Shown: positions 12,184-20,816 of the stretch, one piece after another
Position numbering within the stretch: position 1 is the first letter of the stretch
Layout: every line of letters begins with the position of its first letter
Virus record (IMG/VR): IMGVR_UViG_3300027969_000421
Location: 1 to 23,911 of that record
From: a virus
Direction: 5' to 3' (one strand)
DNA: 23,911 bases
Program-made: the position numbers and the translations under genes
Notes under the pieces: model-generated
What the model was told of the DNA's origin: nothing
The model's input: only the letters and a program-made list of their open reading frames with translations
Database searches by the model: none

Positions 12184-13710
12184 TTAAGACCCCATCCAAC
12201 TGGTTGAAACCATGCCGCGATCAGAAGACACACGGCGCTGTGTTTTTTCATTGTACTCTCGGTGCGCCACAGGAAAAGCAAAGGTCACGCAAATGGCATC
12301 AGCCGCATCCGGTGAAGCCAACCCCCGTGCTCTCATGTCTTTCTTAGACTCCAAGAATATTGTTCCACGTGAATCAGGCTTGATCATAGGTGAAACCAGA
12401 TCCGTTTTCAAGAACCTGTCTTTAGGGATGCTTGCTGACCTTAACCAGTCCTTCATCTTGCCCCACATCTCAGCCCTCTTGTTGCCATACATAATTGGGT
12501 TAGCCGACTTGTTGCCAAAGTTCACGCCCTTGACCTTGTAGCGCTGCTCTTTCAGGCGGTCAACAATACCGGCGCCAAGACCACCTTCATCAATCACCAC
12601 CATGGCCGGCTTCCATTCTTCCATGGCCTCAATAATATGGCCAACCACCGTCATCGTGTCATCGCCTCGATGCCGGTCAATGCGGATAATGTCGCGCCCT
12701 TGCCGGATTGCAAGGACTGTTGCATCGGCGCCAAACCTTGCAGGGTCCACACCAATAATAATCGGCGCAGTCTGATCCTTGTACTTTTCGCGCTTCATAG
12801 CCTCGTCCACAATGTCAGCCGGTATGAACTGGTCATCACCTTCTGACGGAAACATGCCATAGACCTCAACGTGAGCCTGGCTCGAGTCCGGTCCGTACTC
12901 ATCAATGATGTTCTGGTACACAGCCTTGTCCGTACCCTCAACCGTTCGGGCGTCCACCACCTTGTTGGTCCAGAAATCTCGCTTGGAGTTAAAGCATTCG
13001 TAGAAGTACCCCGTATTTCGGCGGGGATTGCTGAACGCCAACCATAGGCGGTTTGGCGTATTCTCCGTAAAGAAACCAGCGGTCACCGCCCAAATAGCAT
13101 CATCAATACCAGATGCCTCATCAAAGATCACCATCACACCATCGTGGTTGTGGACTCCAGCATAAGAGTCTGGATTCTCAGCAGACCACAGCCGGCCTTC
13201 AACCGCCCAATAACGGGTGCCTTTTCGCAGATCTTTTTCCACCAGCTCAGTAAGCCAGTTGGCAGGGGCTACTTTTGTCGCACTCACTTCAAACCAGTGG
13301 CTGTTAATGCTCATGGCCAACCACTTGGTGATCTCGGCCCATGTCACTGCTCTGAGCTGTGCTTCGCTGTTGGCCGAAATAATGGTGGTCGAACCTATCC
13401 TAGTGGACAGCATCCAGATGGTGAGCCAACTCACTAACGCTGACTTGCCAATCCCACGGCCAGATGAGACTGCATGGCGCAGGGTTTCAAAGTCTATCAA
13501 CCCATTCTGGCGCTTGATGTGCTCGGTAATCTCTCGCAACACTTCCCTCTGCCATTTTCTTGGCCCCTTGAAATTGTGCAAAGGCGTGTTCTCTTTACCC
13601 CAAGGAAAAGCAAACAACACAAAAGCCTCGGGATCGTTAGAGATTGAAGGGCTCCAAAGAGTCGCCATCAGCTCTTGTTCGTCTTCGGGCTTGTAGATTG
13701 TGGTTTGCAT
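12184..13710 (-). CDS. Terminase large subunit (TerL)
   Basis: The 508-aa protein has the two-domain TerL layout. ATPase: Walker A 'SSGRGIGKS' (82-90), Walker B 'VMVIFDEAS' (192-200) with catalytic Glu198, and a coupling-type 'FSNPR' (226-230). RNase H-like nuclease: Asp322 in 'GVDPAR', Asp374 in 'VVIDEGG' and Asp468 in 'ASPDAADAI', a complete acidic triad. It pumps and cuts DNA at the portal. The ATG directly follows the TAA of the LPD23-like gene. TerS is not adjacent; it lies about 1.8 kb upstream across a non-coding gap and the zincin-like gene. Confidence 0.95.
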   Translation of the reverse strand: MQTTIYKPEDEQELMATLWSPSISNDPEAFVLFAFPWGKENTPLHNFKGPRKWQREVLREITEHIKRQNGLIDFETLRHAVSSGRGIGKSALVSWLTIWMLSTRIGSTTIISANSEAQLRAVTWAEITKWLAMSINSHWFEVSATKVAPANWLTELVEKDLRKGTRYWAVEGRLWSAENPDSYAGVHNHDGVMVIFDEASGIDDAIWAVTAGFFTENTPNRLWLAFSNPRRNTGYFYECFNSKRDFWTNKVVDARTVEGTDKAVYQNIIDEYGPDSSQAHVEVYGMFPSEGDDQFIPADIVDEAMKREKYKDQTAPIIIGVDPARFGADATVLAIRQGRDIIRIDRHRGDDTMTVVGHIIEAMEEWKPAMVVIDEGGLGAGIVDRLKEQRYKVKGVNFGNKSANPIMYGNKRAEMWGKMKDWLRSASIPKDRFLKTDLVSPMIKPDSRGTIFLESKKDMRARGLASPDAADAICVTFAFPVAHREYNEKTQRRVSSDRGMVSTSWMGS

Positions 13711-15003
13711 TTATTTCGTCCGGACAATCAACTGATTGACCGGAACGTCGTAGCTTTGATAGGGAAAAGTGGCTATGCGTTCTTGAGGCGTCATGTTCAT
13801 GCGAGTTTGCACTGCTCTGGCTTCGGCTTCGCCGGCAAGACGCTGATACAAATCAAATTTTGCTTGTTCGCTGTGATAAGCAAGTAACGCTTTTTCATCT
13901 AATTCACGCGCCTCTTTTTCAAGTTTTAAACCTTTTTTGCGGGCGCCAGGCTTGACAATCTTTGTTGGATCAAGCGGGTCATTAGCGCTAGACATCCTAA
14001 ACATTTCTTGTGCTTGTTCTCTTTTTTGTTTTGCAATTTCTTCAAGCGTCAAAATCATTGTTTGTGGATCACCACCCCCTGCAAAACCTTCTCTTTGCTG
14101 TACAGCGTGTTGAAGCTCATGCAACATTGTTGATCTATTTACAGCTCCATTTTCGCTAATAGGAACACCAATATTGTCCCTTTCGGTTTCGTAATATCCG
14201 CCCTTTCTGCCAGGCTTCAAAAAGACGCCAATATTTTTTGTGTCGGGATATGCCGCCGATAGTTCTGGGTGCAACAAAGCCTTTTGCCTGCGAACTACAG
14301 TTGAATTTCCTCTTTCTAAATCTGTTCTTTCACCCCAAGAATAAAGTTTGTGGCCAGGCATTGAATTAGCGTCACTAATCTCTTGCCTCAATTTGCCTTC
14401 TGACCCCCTAAATGTGCCAGTAGCTGCCCAGATTTCTTCAGGTTTTGCGCCAGCCTTTTCCATCTCTAACGCTTTATTTGCAGCAGCCTGATTCCATGTC
14501 TTAGAAGTAGGGCCAACAAAAATCTGGCTTTGCGTACCCTGCGCCAGATCTTGCAACATCTGCGCCGGCATCCCACCGCGCTCCATGATCTGTGGGATTA
14601 CCCTTTCAGCATACCGTTCACCAGCCATGCCTGCTGTCAGTGCCGCCTGCCTTGCTGCTCTCGCTGCCTGCAATGACGCCATTGTGGCCGGCTTGACCGC
14701 TGGTGCTACCGCCATCGCCGCATCCAACACTTCCGGCCTGATGCGTGTGGTGCCACCCAACCCACCAGCGCCAGTTGTCAAGGGTTCGCCATAAGACAGC
14801 CGGTCCAATGTTTGACTGACTTCTGGAGCCATCAGAAACCTTGAAACCCCCTGCATCTGCTGCGTGCGCTGGGGCGCATAACTCTGCGCCAGAAAGTCAG
14901 CCAACGCGCCAAGATACTCATTGCGTGGCACCGCACCAATTGAGTCCTGATACGCCAACATGTTTGCTGGGCGCTGCGTTAAAGCGTTGCTGTAGGTTGC
15001 CAT
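13711..15003 (-). CDS. LPD23-like protein with zincin-type HExxH motif, 430 aa
   Basis: The middle carries 'STMLHELQHAVQQREGFAGG', containing HELQH (HExxH zinc-protease signature), and a later conserved Glu-rich stretch 'RLAGEAEARAVQTRMNMTPQ', as in the Large Polyvalent Protein-associated Domain 23 family. Upstream blocks 'KTWNQAAANKALEMEKAGAK' and 'TGTFRGSEGKLRQEISD' also match LPD23 proteins, which often sit in phage ejection or polyvalent proteins. Here the domain is almost free-standing and lies between TerS and TerL. The N-terminal 150 residues are Ala/Gln-rich helix. Protease activity is plausible, not shown. No clear Shine-Dalgarno precedes the ATG. Confidence 0.72.
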   Translation of the reverse strand: MATYSNALTQRPANMLAYQDSIGAVPRNEYLGALADFLAQSYAPQRTQQMQGVSRFLMAPEVSQTLDRLSYGEPLTTGAGGLGGTTRIRPEVLDAAMAVAPAVKPATMASLQAARAARQAALTAGMAGERYAERVIPQIMERGGMPAQMLQDLAQGTQSQIFVGPTSKTWNQAAANKALEMEKAGAKPEEIWAATGTFRGSEGKLRQEISDANSMPGHKLYSWGERTDLERGNSTVVRRQKALLHPELSAAYPDTKNIGVFLKPGRKGGYYETERDNIGVPISENGAVNRSTMLHELQHAVQQREGFAGGGDPQTMILTLEEIAKQKREQAQEMFRMSSANDPLDPTKIVKPGARKKGLKLEKEARELDEKALLAYHSEQAKFDLYQRLAGEAEARAVQTRMNMTPQERIATFPYQSYDVPVNQLIVRTK

Positions 15004-15296
15004 GGCGTGATGTTAAACGAAAAATTAAAAAATGAAAAATATTTTTAAAATGTTCGCGGGGCTACCGTTCCTGTGGCCCTTTCGCGCCGGCCCTACCCCC
15101 CCCGACCGTGGCCAGTTGGGCAGGCCAGGCGCCGCGGGGCCACCCAACAACCCAAGTGTTAGTAGGCACTTACATACTTAGCGGCTTAAATCATAATGAA
15201 TACCAAACAACTCAGCGACTTTACACAATGTCCATTATGTTAAGTCGTAACGTGGTTACGCACAGGTTATACATGATCGTATGTCGCCAAACTCGG

Positions 15297-15305
15297 TTGT
15301 CCACA
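15297..15305 (+). promoter_or_regulatory. DnaA-box-like site, one mismatch
   Basis: TTGTCCACA differs from the consensus TTATCCACA at one position. It is embedded in a short inverted repeat (GGTTGT-CC-ACAACC) and lies 29 bp from a perfect box in opposite orientation. Confidence 0.4.
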
Positions 15306-15334
15306 ACCAACAATGAATAACTGCCAGTTTGCCC

Positions 15335-15343
15335 TGTGGATAA
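15335..15343 (-). promoter_or_regulatory. DnaA box, perfect consensus
   Basis: The minus strand reads TTATCCACA, the exact consensus DnaA box, within the spacer and right arm of the CCAGTT/AACTGG inverted repeat. A 9-mer can occur by chance; the nearby second site and AT-rich stretch raise its weight. Confidence 0.45.
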
Positions 15344-15493
15344 CTGGCTTGAGTAGTTCATAGGTTTTGTCTATCAGCTTTACCAAACCGGTAGTTTTTG
15401 GCTATTTTTTGGCTATGCGCCTGCGCGTAGTTGTAAAGAATTTCGGCGTAATCCGCACAAACCCACCACTATTACCACACCAAAAGTCACAAA

Positions 15494-16003
15494 TCACCCA
15501 TCCTTTGCCTGCACATCCACAACGTTGCTATCGTCCTGAAGCACGCGCTGTTTAGCTTCGTTCAGGGCATCCAAGACGCTGATGCGGGTGTCGGTAACGC
15601 TAACATCAATGCGATCACCGTACATTTTGGGCTTAAGTTTGGAGGCAATCCATTTGCGCGCATCGACTTGCATTCGCTTTTGCTGAACCCAAGCAGAAGC
15701 CATGGGTCCTTCCAAATGATCTGGCATGGGTTCGTCAGCCAGCTCGAGAATTTCTTCAGCCAGGCGGTCGGCTCGGTTTTCAATGGCTTTCTCGTACATC
15801 TCCCGAAACTGAAGATTGTTTCGCAGCATCATCATCACGGCATGATACGAAGGCATACCTTCGGCCTTCAATGCACTGCTTAGACTTTTGCCAAGCGACA
15901 TTTGTTCGGTCATTATTTGCCAGCATGGATTGTCAATACCAAACACGGTTGGCCGGCCTGGCTTACGTTTCACGGCCACCTCAGACGCCAAGTTTTGAGT
16001 CAC
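15494..16003 (-). CDS. Terminase small subunit, Sf6 type (TerS), GTG start
   Basis: The 169-aa product has an N-terminal HTH-like part ('KRKPGRPTVFGIDNPCWQIM', 'SLSSALKAEGMPSYHAVMMM') and a helical oligomerisation part ('RADRLAEEILELADEPMPDH', 'KRMQVDARKWIASKLKPKMY', 'GDRIDV'). The 'RAD.L.EEI…D.RKW.ASKLKPK.YGDR' pattern is typical of Sf6-like TerS. It recognises phage DNA and regulates TerL. The frame is open upstream to an ATG at 16084, but a good AGGAG 7 nt before the GTG at 16003, and start of similarity there, favour GTG; the longer form would run through the terminator-like hairpin. Confidence 0.88.
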   Translation of the reverse strand: MTQNLASEVAVKRKPGRPTVFGIDNPCWQIMTEQMSLGKSLSSALKAEGMPSYHAVMMMLRNNLQFREMYEKAIENRADRLAEEILELADEPMPDHLEGPMASAWVQQKRMQVDARKWIASKLKPKMYGDRIDVSVTDTRISVLDALNEAKQRVLQDDSNVVDVQAKDG

Positions 16004-16455: not shown

Positions 16456-16766
16456 GTACCGACGATTCGACCCGACTTTGTGTACCGAACCGAAGGGGGT
16501 ATATATACCCCTTCGGTACGTTTCGGTACAACGGGCAAGTCGGGCATCGGTACGTTTCGGTACGTTTCGGTACATCGGTACAGTGTTTCGGTACACTTTG
16601 ACTGTACCGAACGTACCGAAATCGGTACAGATCGGTTCGGTACGGTACATTTCACTTTCAAAATAATTGCCGTTTCGGTACATCGGTACATCAATTCTGG
16701 TTGTTTCTGGCATGTGTATTGCTTAAACAACATTAGAATTCGGTGTTTTTGGTACAGATCGGTACA
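16456..16766. repeat. GGTAC repeat array: 18 motifs in about 310 bp
   Basis: GGTAC occurs on the + strand at 16515, 16525, 16549, 16559, 16569, 16577, 16590, 16624, 16639, 16644, 16677, 16685, 16751 and 16761, and as GTACC at 16456, 16482, 16604 and 16613. Random expectation is well under one. Most are within a longer TCGGTAC(A/G) context. Several are exactly 10 bp apart (16515/16525; 16549/16559/16569; 16751/16761), so they would face the same side of the helix. Units run in both orientations. It fills the gap between vut and rusA and extends into the vut 3' end. It is not CRISPR: no spacers of constant length. Confidence 0.9.
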
Positions 16767-17220: not shown

Positions 17221-17894
17221 ATTAAACTTTCTTGTAAAGGTTGGAGTTCCCAAAGGGAGGGTGGGTTTGTTGAATCAATACGTTTTGCCATGCATCCAGC
17301 GCAAATAGTGCTTTCAGCATGGTGTAACGCAACATTTGTTGAATCAGCACTTGCTAAAGGCCAAGGGCCAGCAGACAAACCAAGCATTCGCAAACCATGA
17401 ATCCAAGGCAGTTTTCCAAAAGTTTTGGTCAAAATATTAAAAGCCTCATCCATTTTTCCTGACCATTTGGGCGTTCCAATTTGCCAATACTCGCCACTTG
17501 AACCAAAGCAAACTCTGCCCCATGTATCTGACAATTCCAAAAGGTATGAAATTGGCATACCCAAATGCCAAACTGGAATTCCAAATTCTTTGCGGAAAGG
17601 CCAAGTTTTGACCATTTCTTTTTGTTGCTCAACCGTGCCATCTATTACATCAGGAACAACCGCCCAATGTGGATGTGCCAACAATGGCTCAACCCATTCA
17701 TAAAATCCATTTATGTCAAACGGCAATCCCCGTGTTTTGGCACTAAATGCACCGTTGTCTAACATCAAAGACTGCCCCAAACGCAAACATCTTTTAAGAT
17801 CATCAGGACGGGCATAAGAAACACAAAAGTGTTTCCCACCCATTGTCTCAATTGCTTTTATGGGGGTGATTGGTGTCCCGTGATAGTGAATCAT
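17217..17894 (-). CDS. DpdA/TGT-like transglycosylase, 225 aa (7-deazaguanine insertion in DNA)
   Basis: The sequence keeps TGT-barrel landmarks in order: 'LDNGAFS' (45-51; cf. DSGGFQ), 'VPDVIDG' (80-86), 'VWHLG' (108-112), 'FGSSG' (130-134; cf. GGLAVG), 'HGLRMLG' (166-172; cf. HFMGVG), 'SADSTNVA' (182-189; cf. the nucleophile DS.DC region), and CAGC (198-201), a possible zinc CxxC. Bacterial TGT is about 375 aa, so this is a compact form lacking the tRNA-recognition parts, as in phage DpdA relatives, which swap guanine in DNA for preQ0-type bases. It overlaps the primase stop and the vut start by ATGA. Function inferred; substrate base unknown. Confidence 0.75.
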   Translation of the reverse strand: MIHYHGTPITPIKAIETMGGKHFCVSYARPDDLKRCLRLGQSLMLDNGAFSAKTRGLPFDINGFYEWVEPLLAHPHWAVVPDVIDGTVEQQKEMVKTWPFRKEFGIPVWHLGMPISYLLELSDTWGRVCFGSSGEYWQIGTPKWSGKMDEAFNILTKTFGKLPWIHGLRMLGLSAGPWPLASADSTNVALHHAESTICAGCMAKRIDSTNPPSLWELQPLQESLI

Positions 17895-19936
17895 GCCGCC
17901 ACCTCTAGCACTGCTTTCGGTACAGATCGGTACACCTCATTGCGTAGGCTTACCATGTCTTTTTTAATCAATCCATCCGCTGATTCCTTAAACCGCCTGG
18001 CGTTCAAACCATGGCCTTTAGCTGATTCCCGCCACTCATCGTAATTGGCTGAAACGTCTATGCCTTCCATGCCATCGGTAGTTTTCTTGACTTCAATGGC
18101 CACCAAACAGTTCAGGGCAATCAACTGGTTGCCTGGCAACACGGTACGCTTTTGCACACTGCTTACCAACCCGCTGATGTCCACACTAGTGAGGTACGCA
18201 CCCTTGACTGGGTTGCCGTGTTTGTCAAGGATTGGCAAATCAACCTGAGTGATCTGGAAATTCTTAATCGCAGGCATTTCTGCGTCTTTCATCTTTTTGG
18301 ATTCAAACTGGATGGTCTTGGAGCCTGAATCCAGCTGGCACTTGTACTCGGCGTCCAGTGCGCCCTTTAATGCTGTCGATCCCCGTGACCGTTCCTTGTC
18401 TGCCGCCCCGCTGTGGTGAGCCACCAGTACGCAGCACTTATAGTCTTGGCGCAAGTAGGTATCCAAATGTTGGATAAAGCTGTTCATGTCTTGGGTGCTG
18501 TTTTCATCCCCGCCCATGTTCCGAGCCAATGTGTCGATGACAATCATGGCTGGTGTATGGCCACACTCTGTGGCCAAGGTTTTGATGGCCTCTGCCACCA
18601 TGGCCGCTTCTGTGGCGTCATACAGTTGAGCTGCCCTGTGGCTTTTGAACAGTGGTGCGCCTTGCAGGGATATGCCGTTGCCCAGCTCCCACGCCTTAAA
18701 CCGCCGAGCCAGTCCGTTGTGCCCTTCGCCGGCGATGTAGAACACTGCACCCTTTTGCACGCCATGCCCATGCCAAGGTGTGCCGGTTGCCACACAGCAG
18801 GCAATGTCGATGCTGACAAAACTCTTGCCCCCGCCTGGGTCACCGAACACCTGCGCCAAGCTGTCTGATTCGATGTAGTCATCCACAATCCACTTGATTT
18901 CTGACAGCTCCAGACTGTCGATGCGCGAGAATTCAAACGCCAGTTTTTCCCGTGCCGGCCCAGCCACGCGCTCAATCTGGTCCTTGACCGCATCAAGCCC
19001 CTGCAGGCAGTGAAGGTCATTAAAGTCTGTTGGCTTGTTGTCCACCATGTCAGACTCTCCAAATGATGGATACACAATCTCGCCAAACACCAGTGCCGCG
19101 GCAGCCCGTCCCTTAGTCACCCCAGGGTTGCCCTCCGTCCACTGGTCATTGTCTGCGCCAATAATGATCTTAGAGCCTGGGAACATCTCTTTTGCGCTCT
19201 TGGCCACCTTGGCAAGGTTGCCACAATCAAACGCCACCATGACGGTGTAGCCCGTTGCCTCATGGATCGAAGCGCAAGTGGCAAAACCCTCACCAATGAA
19301 CACAATCTTGCGGTTCCCCCGCAACTCATAGAACCCGCCATCAATCTTGCCGCCCTTCAGGAAGCGTTTGTTCCCTTCAGCGTCAATCGTTTGGTAACTT
19401 AGGATTTCGCCAGACTGGTTGATCACCGGCACCACCAATCTGCCTGCCCTGTCAATCTTGATCCCATGCGCGCCAACGTGCTTGCGAACAAGGTAAGGAT
19501 GGTCATCACTGGCATCAGCATAGGTGCCCACCTCATCCTCTGCACGCTCAGCAGCCACTGCCTGACTGGCCAACCGTTCTGCATCCTTCTTGGCCTTGAG
19601 CTCGGTCACCCACTTATCATGCTCAAATCGCTCAGTAAAAGACATGGACCGCCCAATGTCAGCCACCCACTTGGCCTCAAACGTAGGCTCCTTCCAGCAC
19701 CCAGCAATCCCCACAGGAATCTTGCCACTGGTGTGCAAGATATACCAGCCATCAAGCGCCCCCTTCTTGCTTGATACATGTGGCACACGGTGGATCTCAC
19801 CATCAGCGATCAAATCTTTGATCAATAAGCCACTGGCCTCACAGTGAGATCTGAACGCAGCTTCAGGGTTGATCAGGTCTTGCGACTCTGTGGCCACAGC
19901 AAAGCCATTGGGGAATATGGTTGAAAGGGATGTCAT
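17891..19936 (-). CDS. TOPRIM primase - RecA-like (RepA/AAA_25) helicase fusion, 681 aa
   Basis: Residues 1-110 resemble the N-terminal region of Toprim phage/plasmid primases ('DGWYILH', 'GIAGCWKE'). A TOPRIM domain spans about 208-290 with 'EGFATC' (216-221) and 'GADND' (260-264), then 'DFNDLH' (304-309). A RecA-like helicase follows: Walker A 'GDPGGGKS' (365-372), Walker B 'MIVID' (464-468), and 'VLVAHHSG' (503-510). The C-terminal ~80 residues resemble a winged-helix end. No N-terminal zinc finger is seen. It would prime and unwind at the fork. It overlaps the Mom-like and dpdA-like genes by 4 nt each. The last residues include YRSVPK from the GGTAC repeat. Confidence 0.88.
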   Translation of the reverse strand: MTSLSTIFPNGFAVATESQDLINPEAAFRSHCEASGLLIKDLIADGEIHRVPHVSSKKGALDGWYILHTSGKIPVGIAGCWKEPTFEAKWVADIGRSMSFTERFEHDKWVTELKAKKDAERLASQAVAAERAEDEVGTYADASDDHPYLVRKHVGAHGIKIDRAGRLVVPVINQSGEILSYQTIDAEGNKRFLKGGKIDGGFYELRGNRKIVFIGEGFATCASIHEATGYTVMVAFDCGNLAKVAKSAKEMFPGSKIIIGADNDQWTEGNPGVTKGRAAAALVFGEIVYPSFGESDMVDNKPTDFNDLHCLQGLDAVKDQIERVAGPAREKLAFEFSRIDSLELSEIKWIVDDYIESDSLAQVFGDPGGGKSFVSIDIACCVATGTPWHGHGVQKGAVFYIAGEGHNGLARRFKAWELGNGISLQGAPLFKSHRAAQLYDATEAAMVAEAIKTLATECGHTPAMIVIDTLARNMGGDENSTQDMNSFIQHLDTYLRQDYKCCVLVAHHSGAADKERSRGSTALKGALDAEYKCQLDSGSKTIQFESKKMKDAEMPAIKNFQITQVDLPILDKHGNPVKGAYLTSVDISGLVSSVQKRTVLPGNQLIALNCLVAIEVKKTTDGMEGIDVSANYDEWRESAKGHGLNARRFKESADGLIKKDMVSLRNEVYRSVPKAVLEVAA
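17919..17934 (+). repeat. 16-bp repeat copy 2, in the 3' end of the primase gene
   Basis: GGTACAGATCGGTACA, identical to 16751-16766 and about 1.2 kb from it, lies about 30 bp before the primase stop. It is outside the main array yet has the same in-frame reading (YRSVPK). Confidence 0.85.
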
Positions 19937-20601
19937 ACAAATAAAAGTTGTTGTGTTTTGACCAAACCGCCAGAGTCATATCGCATGGATTCACCCTTTG
20001 GATATGGCTCAATTTCGTATTTCAATGCCTCAAGCATTGACTGCTTTTGCTTTTTGCTACCCAAAAAGAAAATGTATCTGTGTTTTCTGGATCTGTCTTT
20101 TAAATAAAAGTCATCTCCAAATTTATCACGCATCCATTGAGCGCGATTTTCTTGGCCACGACTCATATCTGCCACGGTAACACCATGCAAATGCTCTTGG
20201 CCTTTTAATTTCCAATCAGTTCGCTTCGCACTTAACCCTGTGTAAATAAAATTTGTTGCTTGGTATACATACCCAACATGACCTTGTTCAGTGTCTGCAT
20301 AACTAACCACAATCAATGGCTTGGGTAGCATTCTCAATGATCTGCCAACCAAAAAAGATGCGCTATTTGGCTTGTTGTCGCAACAAAGTCTGTTCAATTC
20401 AATTACGTTATCAATCCATTTTTCACCGCACAAACCAATGCGTAATGCACTGCTTGCAGGCATCCCATAAGTTACAACGCCAATCAATTCGCCAGAGTCG
20501 TAAAGCCCAAAAGCATAAGAAATTGGGCACATTCTTTTTGCGTAGTGTTTTTGCAACAGCCAAGGCTCAACCTCAAAGCTGTTAATTGGCAAAACTTTCA
20601 C
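19933..20601 (-). CDS. Mom-like DNA modification protein (adenine carbamoylmethylation family), GTG start
   Basis: The 222-aa protein shows the pattern of phage Mom-family proteins: 'LLQKHYAKRMCPISYAFGLY', 'GELIGVVTYGMPAS', 'VIELNRLCCDN', 'ASFLVGRSLRMLPKP', 'IVVSYADTEQGHVGYVYQAT', 'NFIYTGLSAKRTDW'. Mu Mom, a GNAT-fold protein, modifies adenines in phage DNA to resist restriction. An ATG at 20652 exists in frame, but it overlaps the regulator gene by 55 nt. The GTG at 20601 has GGAGG 7 nt upstream, overlaps the regulator stop by 4 nt (GTGA), and starts directly at the conserved part, so it is preferred. Chemistry inferred from family. Confidence 0.78.
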   Translation of the reverse strand: MKVLPINSFEVEPWLLQKHYAKRMCPISYAFGLYDSGELIGVVTYGMPASSALRIGLCGEKWIDNVIELNRLCCDNKPNSASFLVGRSLRMLPKPLIVVSYADTEQGHVGYVYQATNFIYTGLSAKRTDWKLKGQEHLHGVTVADMSRGQENRAQWMRDKFGDDFYLKDRSRKHRYIFFLGSKKQKQSMLEALKYEIEPYPKGESMRYDSGGLVKTQQLLFV

Positions 20602-20816
20602 GCCTGTGCCTCCACCAGCTCTGGCCATATAGCGCCCCAGCTGTCCTGGCACAGCATCTTGCGACTTAACCGCCCACCGGTTTCTTGCTCAACCCGTACA
20701 GCCTCAGTGGCCGACATCTCCCGCCTGCCGGTGAGGCACTGGTAAAGATACTGTTCATTGATGCCGACTTTTTCTGCCAGTAGTCGGCGCTCGTCTGGTG
20801 TAATTTGTGTGTTCAT
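20598..20816 (-). CDS. YdaS/Cro-like helix-turn-helix regulator, 72 aa
   Basis: The sequence 'RRLLAEKVGINEQYLYQCLT' then 'GRREMSATEAVRVEQETGGR' is a clear Cro/YdaS-type HTH, with the typical 'VEQETGG…SR' end of helix 4. At 72 aa it has the usual Cro-like size. It is the first gene of the minus-strand operon and faces the divergent early genes; three related palindromic sites lie in the intergenic region just upstream, so it is a good candidate to bind them and control both directions. Its stop overlaps the GTG of the Mom-like gene, so regulator and DNA modification are co-translated. Confidence 0.82.
   Translation of the reverse strand: MNTQITPDERRLLAEKVGINEQYLYQCLTGRREMSATEAVRVEQETGGRLSRKMLCQDSWGAIWPELVEAQA
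20609..20613 (-). promoter_or_regulatory. Ribosome binding site that decides the Mom-like start
   Basis: The minus strand reads GGAGG, 7 nt before the GTG at 20599-20601. Confidence 0.65.

Follow-up and report, generated by a model that had tools for sequence, protein, structure and literature searches.

A conserved, invertible DnaA-box module next to the phage small terminase gene: a predicted replication origin element for host DnaA

The 490-nt non-coding gap beside the terminase small-subunit (TerS) gene of virus record IMGVR_UViG_3300027969_000421 is probably a replication origin element that binds host DnaA, either as the primary origin or as an accessory one. The phages carrying it are predicted to borrow the replication starter of their host, and probably do so. 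The window analyzed here is the whole IMG/VR record of 23,911 bp, both ends of which cut through open genes. Its gap consists of two separable parts: a DnaA-box module of ~130 bp, termed M, and a G-rich conserved block, termed B, with an adjoining AT tract. A sequence-only reading had proposed either an origin using host DnaA or a cos/pac packaging site. The first proposal is largely supported, as a prediction, by conserved boxes at fixed spacings, by the extreme AT tract that adjoins them, and by the retention of M with replication genes when terminases are replaced; the second is not supported, given circular contigs, scattered contig ends and a lack of TerS specificity.

The late genes lie on the minus strand and run leftward: an Sf6-type TerS gene (15494-16003; GTG start picked by eye; PF20901, 2.8e-28; phrog_1482), a 430-aa cargo gene with an LPD23 domain (13711-15003; PF18838, 1.6e-10), the terminase large-subunit (TerL) gene (12184-13710; phrog_2, 1.1e-42), and P22-like portal and coat genes. 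A primase-helicase gene with Toprim and AAA_25 domains (17891-19936, minus strand; profile match), linked to module M, is located upstream of TerS, and the early genes face the opposite way. Long relatives of 32.9 to 37.9 kb have the same gene plan. The cargo gene is variable, with a full-length, partial or no match in relatives. Its slot between block B and TerL (13711-15003) encodes the LPD23 protein together with a metallopeptidase match below the Pfam cut-off, and in other relatives the slot is empty, partial or occupied by different genes. A 112-aa ORF before TerS, which we take to resemble a RusA resolvase, had no match in Pfam or PHROGs, and a Mom-family DNA modification gene (19933-20652; PF25680, 2.9e-40) had no tblastn match in 17 long contigs. 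By eye, G001, which is the closest long relative, has no ORF for a DNA polymerase or a DnaA-like initiator, and a PF08299 search of it was also negative. Nine of the 10 TerL loci in genome contigs are on MAG contigs, and five are labeled Rhodoferax, Burkholderiales or betaproteobacterial; these MAG sources and named relatives from lake and spring records, which are not a survey, suggest a freshwater group.

The gap extends from the ATG of the cargo gene to the stop of TerS (15004-15493). Its length, its AT-rich stretch (15012-15051, 10% GC), its GC-rich block (15052-15160, 72% GC), its C8 run (15096-15103, the sole run of at least eight C or G in the window) and its two opposed DnaA boxes (perfect TTATCCACA at 15335-15343, minus strand, and TTGTCCACA at 15297-15305, plus strand) all agree with the first description. 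The gap does adjoin TerS, as had been said, but its other neighbor is the variable cargo gene, and TerL comes only after that gene. Relatives retain a gap after TerS with or without a cargo gene next to it; where TerL follows directly (38 distinct loci), it measures 333 to 427 nt in 34 loci and 77 to 170 nt in the other four, whose TerS proteins are 37 to 49% identical. The TerS and TerL scans covered the best 80 loci each, with loci of one contig recurring, and counts of relatives are therefore lower bounds.

The five or more inverted repeats that had been claimed are a weak point of that description. Perfect 6-bp stems with loops of up to 20 nt are in excess in the gap (8 versus a shuffled mean of 2.62; 3 of 300 shuffles had as many), but 7-bp stems are not (2 versus 0.89; 61 of 300 shuffles had as many), and 8-bp stems are absent from the gap. 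The inverted repeat that matters is an imperfect palindrome at 15219-15244. The gap was judged non-coding, as only ORFs of 62 to 70 aa reach into it and relatives carry the module in the opposite orientation. Rfam returned no match in the gap, the GC-rich block folded as RNA no better than its shuffles (z = -1.23, -1.40 and -0.37), and no terminator was found in the gap region. The DnaA-box signal of the window is a cluster and not an overall count: TTATNCACA with one mismatch has 17 matches window-wide versus a shuffled mean of 23.2, which is no excess, whereas TTRTNCACA matches nowhere in the window except at two sites in the gap, a number reached by 1 of 1,000 dinucleotide shuffles of the gap.

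Module M occupies 15217-15348 on the plus strand, as located by blastn of the relatives' modules and an alignment of 105 distinct modules, and in the window it has its inverted state, directed against the late genes. Its 26-bp palindrome (arms at 15219-15230 and 15233-15244) is followed by two forward boxes: box 1 (TTACGCACA, 15256-15264, plus strand), which is weaker, with one mismatch to TTATNCACA, and box 2, the forward box named above, recovered by the box scan and 41 nt from box 1, as in relatives. The reverse boxes are the degenerate box 3 (TTATTCATT, 15312-15320, minus strand; read from the sequence) at +15 from box 2, and box 5, the perfect one, at +38, both as in relatives. The recurrent spacings among relatives are forward boxes 41 apart, then reverse boxes at +15, +10 and +14. 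The window's own module has just two strong boxes, which counts against the origin reading.

All 84 distinct gaps chosen by TerS alone, the window included, contain at least two TTDTNCACA boxes (mean, 3.80 versus 0.083 in shuffled sequence). They derive from 102 gaps by removal of those with identical first 330 nt; TerS below 60% identity and gaps shorter than 250 nt were excluded, and the alignment covered 82 of the 84. The palindrome arm, CATTATGTTAAGT, is almost invariant, with 74 exact copies among the 84 gaps and 83 when one mismatch is allowed. At up to two mismatches, a scan for the arm recovered only its own two copies in the window and five further matches, each at two mismatches, in the 12 long M-positive contigs. 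The 500 nt that follow TerS in the same 12 contigs have 6.67 boxes per kb, compared with 0.114 per kb in the remainder of their sequence.

Variation within the boxes is also structured. Among the 105 distinct modules (each at least 150 nt), which were found by similarity to M so that box loss is under-counted, box 2 reads TTATNCACA with C in 66, G in 32, T in 6 and A in 1 at the fifth position and at least 97 of 105 in agreement at every other position. The fifth position of box 1 is likewise C in 69, G in 32, T in 2 and A in 1, its fourth position is C in 11 of 105, and the TGTG of box 5 is kept in all 105. The DnaA box consensus is TTWTNCACA, with a degenerate fifth position at which C is best, according to the part of PMC5835720 available to us. 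Boxes 1 and 2 vary most at the position where DnaA tolerates substitution, and variation within the boxes thus appears to follow the DnaA consensus; judged from box sequence, DnaA is the probable ligand of M.

Block B (15046-15100, minus strand; delimited by the relatives' alignment) is a conserved G-rich 55-mer that keeps its orientation and immediately precedes the first late gene. The AT tract (15010-15050, minus strand) is the least stable 40-mer of the window in a stability scan, and B and the tract together span 15010-15100. In 10 of the 12 M-positive long contigs, no 40-mer of the contig is less stable than this AT tract behind B. The tract belongs to a block separate from M: ten contigs with M show no B, a point against the origin reading, and blastn located B in 42 of 74 TerL loci that lack a close TerS (four of these 74 are cut contigs that bear M). 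Among the five M-negative long contigs, the least stable 40-mer is behind B in G013, ~280 to 360 nt before B, in the slot of M, in G010, G011 and G012, and far away in G009, in which B is present, another point against that reading.

M is inverted in 15 of the 84 gaps, including that of the window, while the direction of block B is constant. Orientation changes six times on a primase tree (71 rows) and three times on M's own tree (105 rows); the rows of the former have at least 1,800 nt of primase at >60% identity plus M, and recombination can inflate its six changes. These changes, which are relative to the AT tract, count against M as an origin. DnaA alone can start opening at P1 oriR, and DnaA sites there work when moved to the other end, as far as the accessible part of PMC5043065 describes, which fits the changes in orientation of M.

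M is present in 148 of 150 loci with TerS of >60% identity (the window counted twice and contigs repeated), and both misses are contigs ending in or at TerS. It is present in 124 of 142 loci with primase of >60% identity; the remaining 18 comprise 11 contigs whose sequence stops at or short of the place of M and seven loci (L212, L214, L223, L243, L244, L258 and L264) with a reduced form, in which the palindrome arm has zero to two mismatches and two boxes are 76 nt apart. The end of one contig (L221) falls on the palindrome arm. No tblastn match to the TerS or TerL of the window was obtained in ten contigs that share the primase and M; six of them have at least 4 kb after the primase, the other four ~2 kb. 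In two loci read in detail (L256 and L225), M precedes a gene in the TerS position, followed by a 419-aa TerL. The TerS-position gene of L256 has no Pfam or PHROG match, and its TerL matches phrog_2, the broad family of the window's TerL, so that kinship of the two large subunits appears distant rather than absent.

A motif search recovered a further 110 loci, each with one box by construction, as the search pattern includes one; 98 of them have at least three boxes, and 44 carry only a distant TerL (25 to 33% identity). Two pattern-scan loci (L341 and L346) were judged by eye to be chance matches. Two lineages read in detail have, respectively, a PriCT_2/AAA_25 and an AAA_25 replication protein, with a distant Sf6-type TerS, and one contig (L106/L314) combines M and a TerS of 73% identity with a primase of only 34%. 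M accompanies several different terminases and replication proteins, which suggests a host factor; the box sequence points to DnaA. All three lineages tested share an AAA_25 helicase domain, so M may also have a phage partner. A 130-nt composite of the module matched 3 of 50,697 phage records over 29 to 30% of its length and none over most of it, and a plasmid source was rejected after a 191-nt stretch with the module had no match in 72,556 plasmid records.

Relatives without the full M carry other repeats in the slot before block B. In 16 of 35 loci, the 400 nt preceding B contain an 8-mer repeated at least five times, compared with 11 of 572 control windows from the same loci (the 35 include the seven reduced-M loci, and three loci with <300 nt before B were excluded). 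The array units differ, being TGACCCAA, TGACTCA, or DnaA-like TTGTCCACA with 7 to 13 box matches; the last, mostly as pairs of TTGTCCACA, occur in seven loci with another TerS (L138, L139, L128, L121, L136, L141 and L267). Slot arrays differ even where TerS is 87 to 94.5% identical (six pairs checked), and median TerS identity is 88.3 within array-unit types versus 89.0 between them (17 proteins, the TerS frame having been found in 17 of 20 slot loci; between-unit identities from 0.0, no hit, to 97.9). A 764-aa upstream protein, however, is 86 to 100% identical within and 65 to 88% between unit types, L267 excepted, in a comparison of few independent lineages that includes near-copies. The array unit therefore tracks the 764-aa protein and not TerS, which argues against the slot as a TerS site and fits an initiator array. 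A DnaA partner encoded by the phages themselves was also sought and rejected. In 30 records, PF08299 was found only in MW202483, which encodes a 98-aa stand-alone DnaA DNA-binding domain (L194, 7083-7379; 1.1e-17); blastn of its available part recovered no match to M. A repeat of the search on 12 records turned up nothing but an open frame of 489 aa, located in the MAG that includes L267 and presumably encoding the DnaA of the host.

In the mechanism that we propose, the gap would be a composite control region at the boundary of early and late genes. M would bind host DnaA via boxes at fixed spacings, two of them forward and two or three reverse, and its palindrome would be bound by a further, hypothetical factor. 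The DnaA assembly would open nearby DNA, most likely the AT tract behind B in the lineage of the window and, where B is missing, the AT-rich stretch between boxes 1 and 2. The phage primase-helicase and host polymerase would then start replication at the opened DNA, with M as the main origin or as an accessory one beside an iteron array; we infer these steps of DNA opening, helicase entry and origin firing at the gap. B and the AT tract also sit at the place expected of a late promoter and may serve both roles. GC skew, which had been suggested as a check, did not single out the gap: the detrended cumulative extreme falls inside it in 1 of 12 long contigs (G005) and not in the other 11, although this is a weak test, as phage GC skew also follows gene strand.

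The best-surviving alternative places the origin proper in an iteron-like array just 3' of the primase gene (16480-16690, minus strand), with units of GTACCGAA partly phased at 10 bp around a GGGGTATATATACCCC palindrome; the gap itself contains no iteron array. The array would be bound by the primase-helicase, and M would be a datA- or DARS-like site for DnaA titration or recharge that would disturb host initiation or supply DnaA-ATP. We consider this unlikely as a whole, yet it accounts for several observations. Each of the 12 M-positive long contigs has such an array 3' of its primase gene, and the units (GTACCGAA, GCACCGAA, CATCCGAA, GAACCGAA and CGTCCGGA) are lineage specific, as if co-evolving with an initiator. 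The distant primase genes of phages PB15, XX1924, CGphi29, 1N2-2 and CRP-406 are each followed by four to six repeats (uncontrolled counts), and these five have no DnaA-box cluster; M may thus be dispensable for initiation. Changes in the orientation of M also favor this alternative, and ColE1 has a 70-bp DARS with three DnaA boxes (available part of PMC5835720). Against it, M lies beside DNA that is the least stable of its contig in 10 of 12 cases, relatives fill its slot with initiator-like arrays, and E. coli has 307 consensus boxes (same part of PMC5835720), to which two to six more would add little unless phage copies were many. The iteron array may nonetheless be the main origin, with M as a second origin or a DnaA-control site.

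A packaging initiation site (pac or cos) is improbable. Terminase genes are nearby in the loci read, B is strongly conserved in a fixed orientation before the first late gene, M again lies between an Sf6-type TerS and TerL in lineages iii and iv, and a number of contigs start or end within ~150 nt of B. However, of the 17 long contigs, six can be closed into circles, each at an arbitrary point, with overlaps of 127, 99 or 55 nt that are taken as assembler overlaps, and the printed contig ends near B scatter with no common nucleotide, by inspection and not by comparison with chance. Fixed genome ends at the gap, as expected of cos, are not seen in the contigs, which do not themselves show virion ends. 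Specificity for the accompanying TerS, as expected of pac, is found neither for M, which in L256 precedes the TerS-position gene that lacks profile matches, nor for the slot arrays, which differ among the closely similar TerS pairs above. Circular closure, scattered ends and the TerS results together argue against cos and against M as pac. B is also kept with different TerS types, but could have a packaging role of its own.

Equally improbable is a late-gene control region in which B and the AT tract form a late promoter, its activator sites being M or the arrays and DnaA serving as a transcription factor: B is directly upstream of whichever gene opens the late operon, in fixed orientation and with a very short leader before the start codon, and a sigma-70-like TGGACA/TACGAT match (15303-15276) points towards the late genes, but this match, the only one so directed of three in 14900-15560 (0.5 expected), is inside M and not at the AT tract in a scan restricted to the sigma-70 type, and M turns around among relatives.

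Origins driven by DnaA are familiar from chromosomes and from some plasmids. The predicted host-DnaA origin resembles E. coli oriC, in which clustered DnaA boxes face each other in two groups at conserved spacing with a very AT-rich stretch close by. Unlike oriC, it is phage borne and ~130 bp long, has a 26-bp palindrome and a G-rich block between boxes and AT tract, and has a box group that faces either way, and the phage supplies its own primase-helicase. The DARS and datA sites of E. coli and ColE1, for which we know of no phage role, regulate DnaA. They too are small DnaA-box clusters with a defined arrangement, as described in the part of PMC5835720 at hand. P1 oriR and the iteron plasmid origins of F, RK2 and pSC101 share DnaA sites and an AT-rich region with the gap, whereas M lacks initiator iterons, which are instead separate, beside the primase gene, with two genes between. 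P1 oriL is likewise a phage lytic origin region with two DnaA sites and an AT2 region preceded by a C/G-rich stretch, but it lies within repL, and mutating the two DnaA sites had no effect in a reporter assay (PMC9948254, accessible part), which counts against M. The putative origin of Pseudomonas phage PseuGes_254, predicted by Ori-Finder, also combines an AT-rich region with predicted DnaA boxes, as a single-genome prediction lacking comparative evidence (PMC11512268, accessible part). None of the titles and abstract openings surveyed, which covered few subscription papers, describes such a module, and its novelty is provisional.

More tentatively, and as a possibility that we would not yet call probable, M may represent a portable origin for the host initiator: a DnaA cassette of ~130 bp that would spread among otherwise distantly related phages and function in either orientation, within a slot occupied in relatives by iteron arrays of their own. 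These phages would then have switched during evolution between the initiator of the host and their own, some having both DnaA and iteron origins. If true, a conserved mobile DnaA cassette would tie phage replication to host initiation control and provide a ready system for studying the choice that a phage makes between its host's initiator and its own. Comparisons of the same terminase with different arrays, and of the same replication gene with different terminases, would make that choice of initiator testable.
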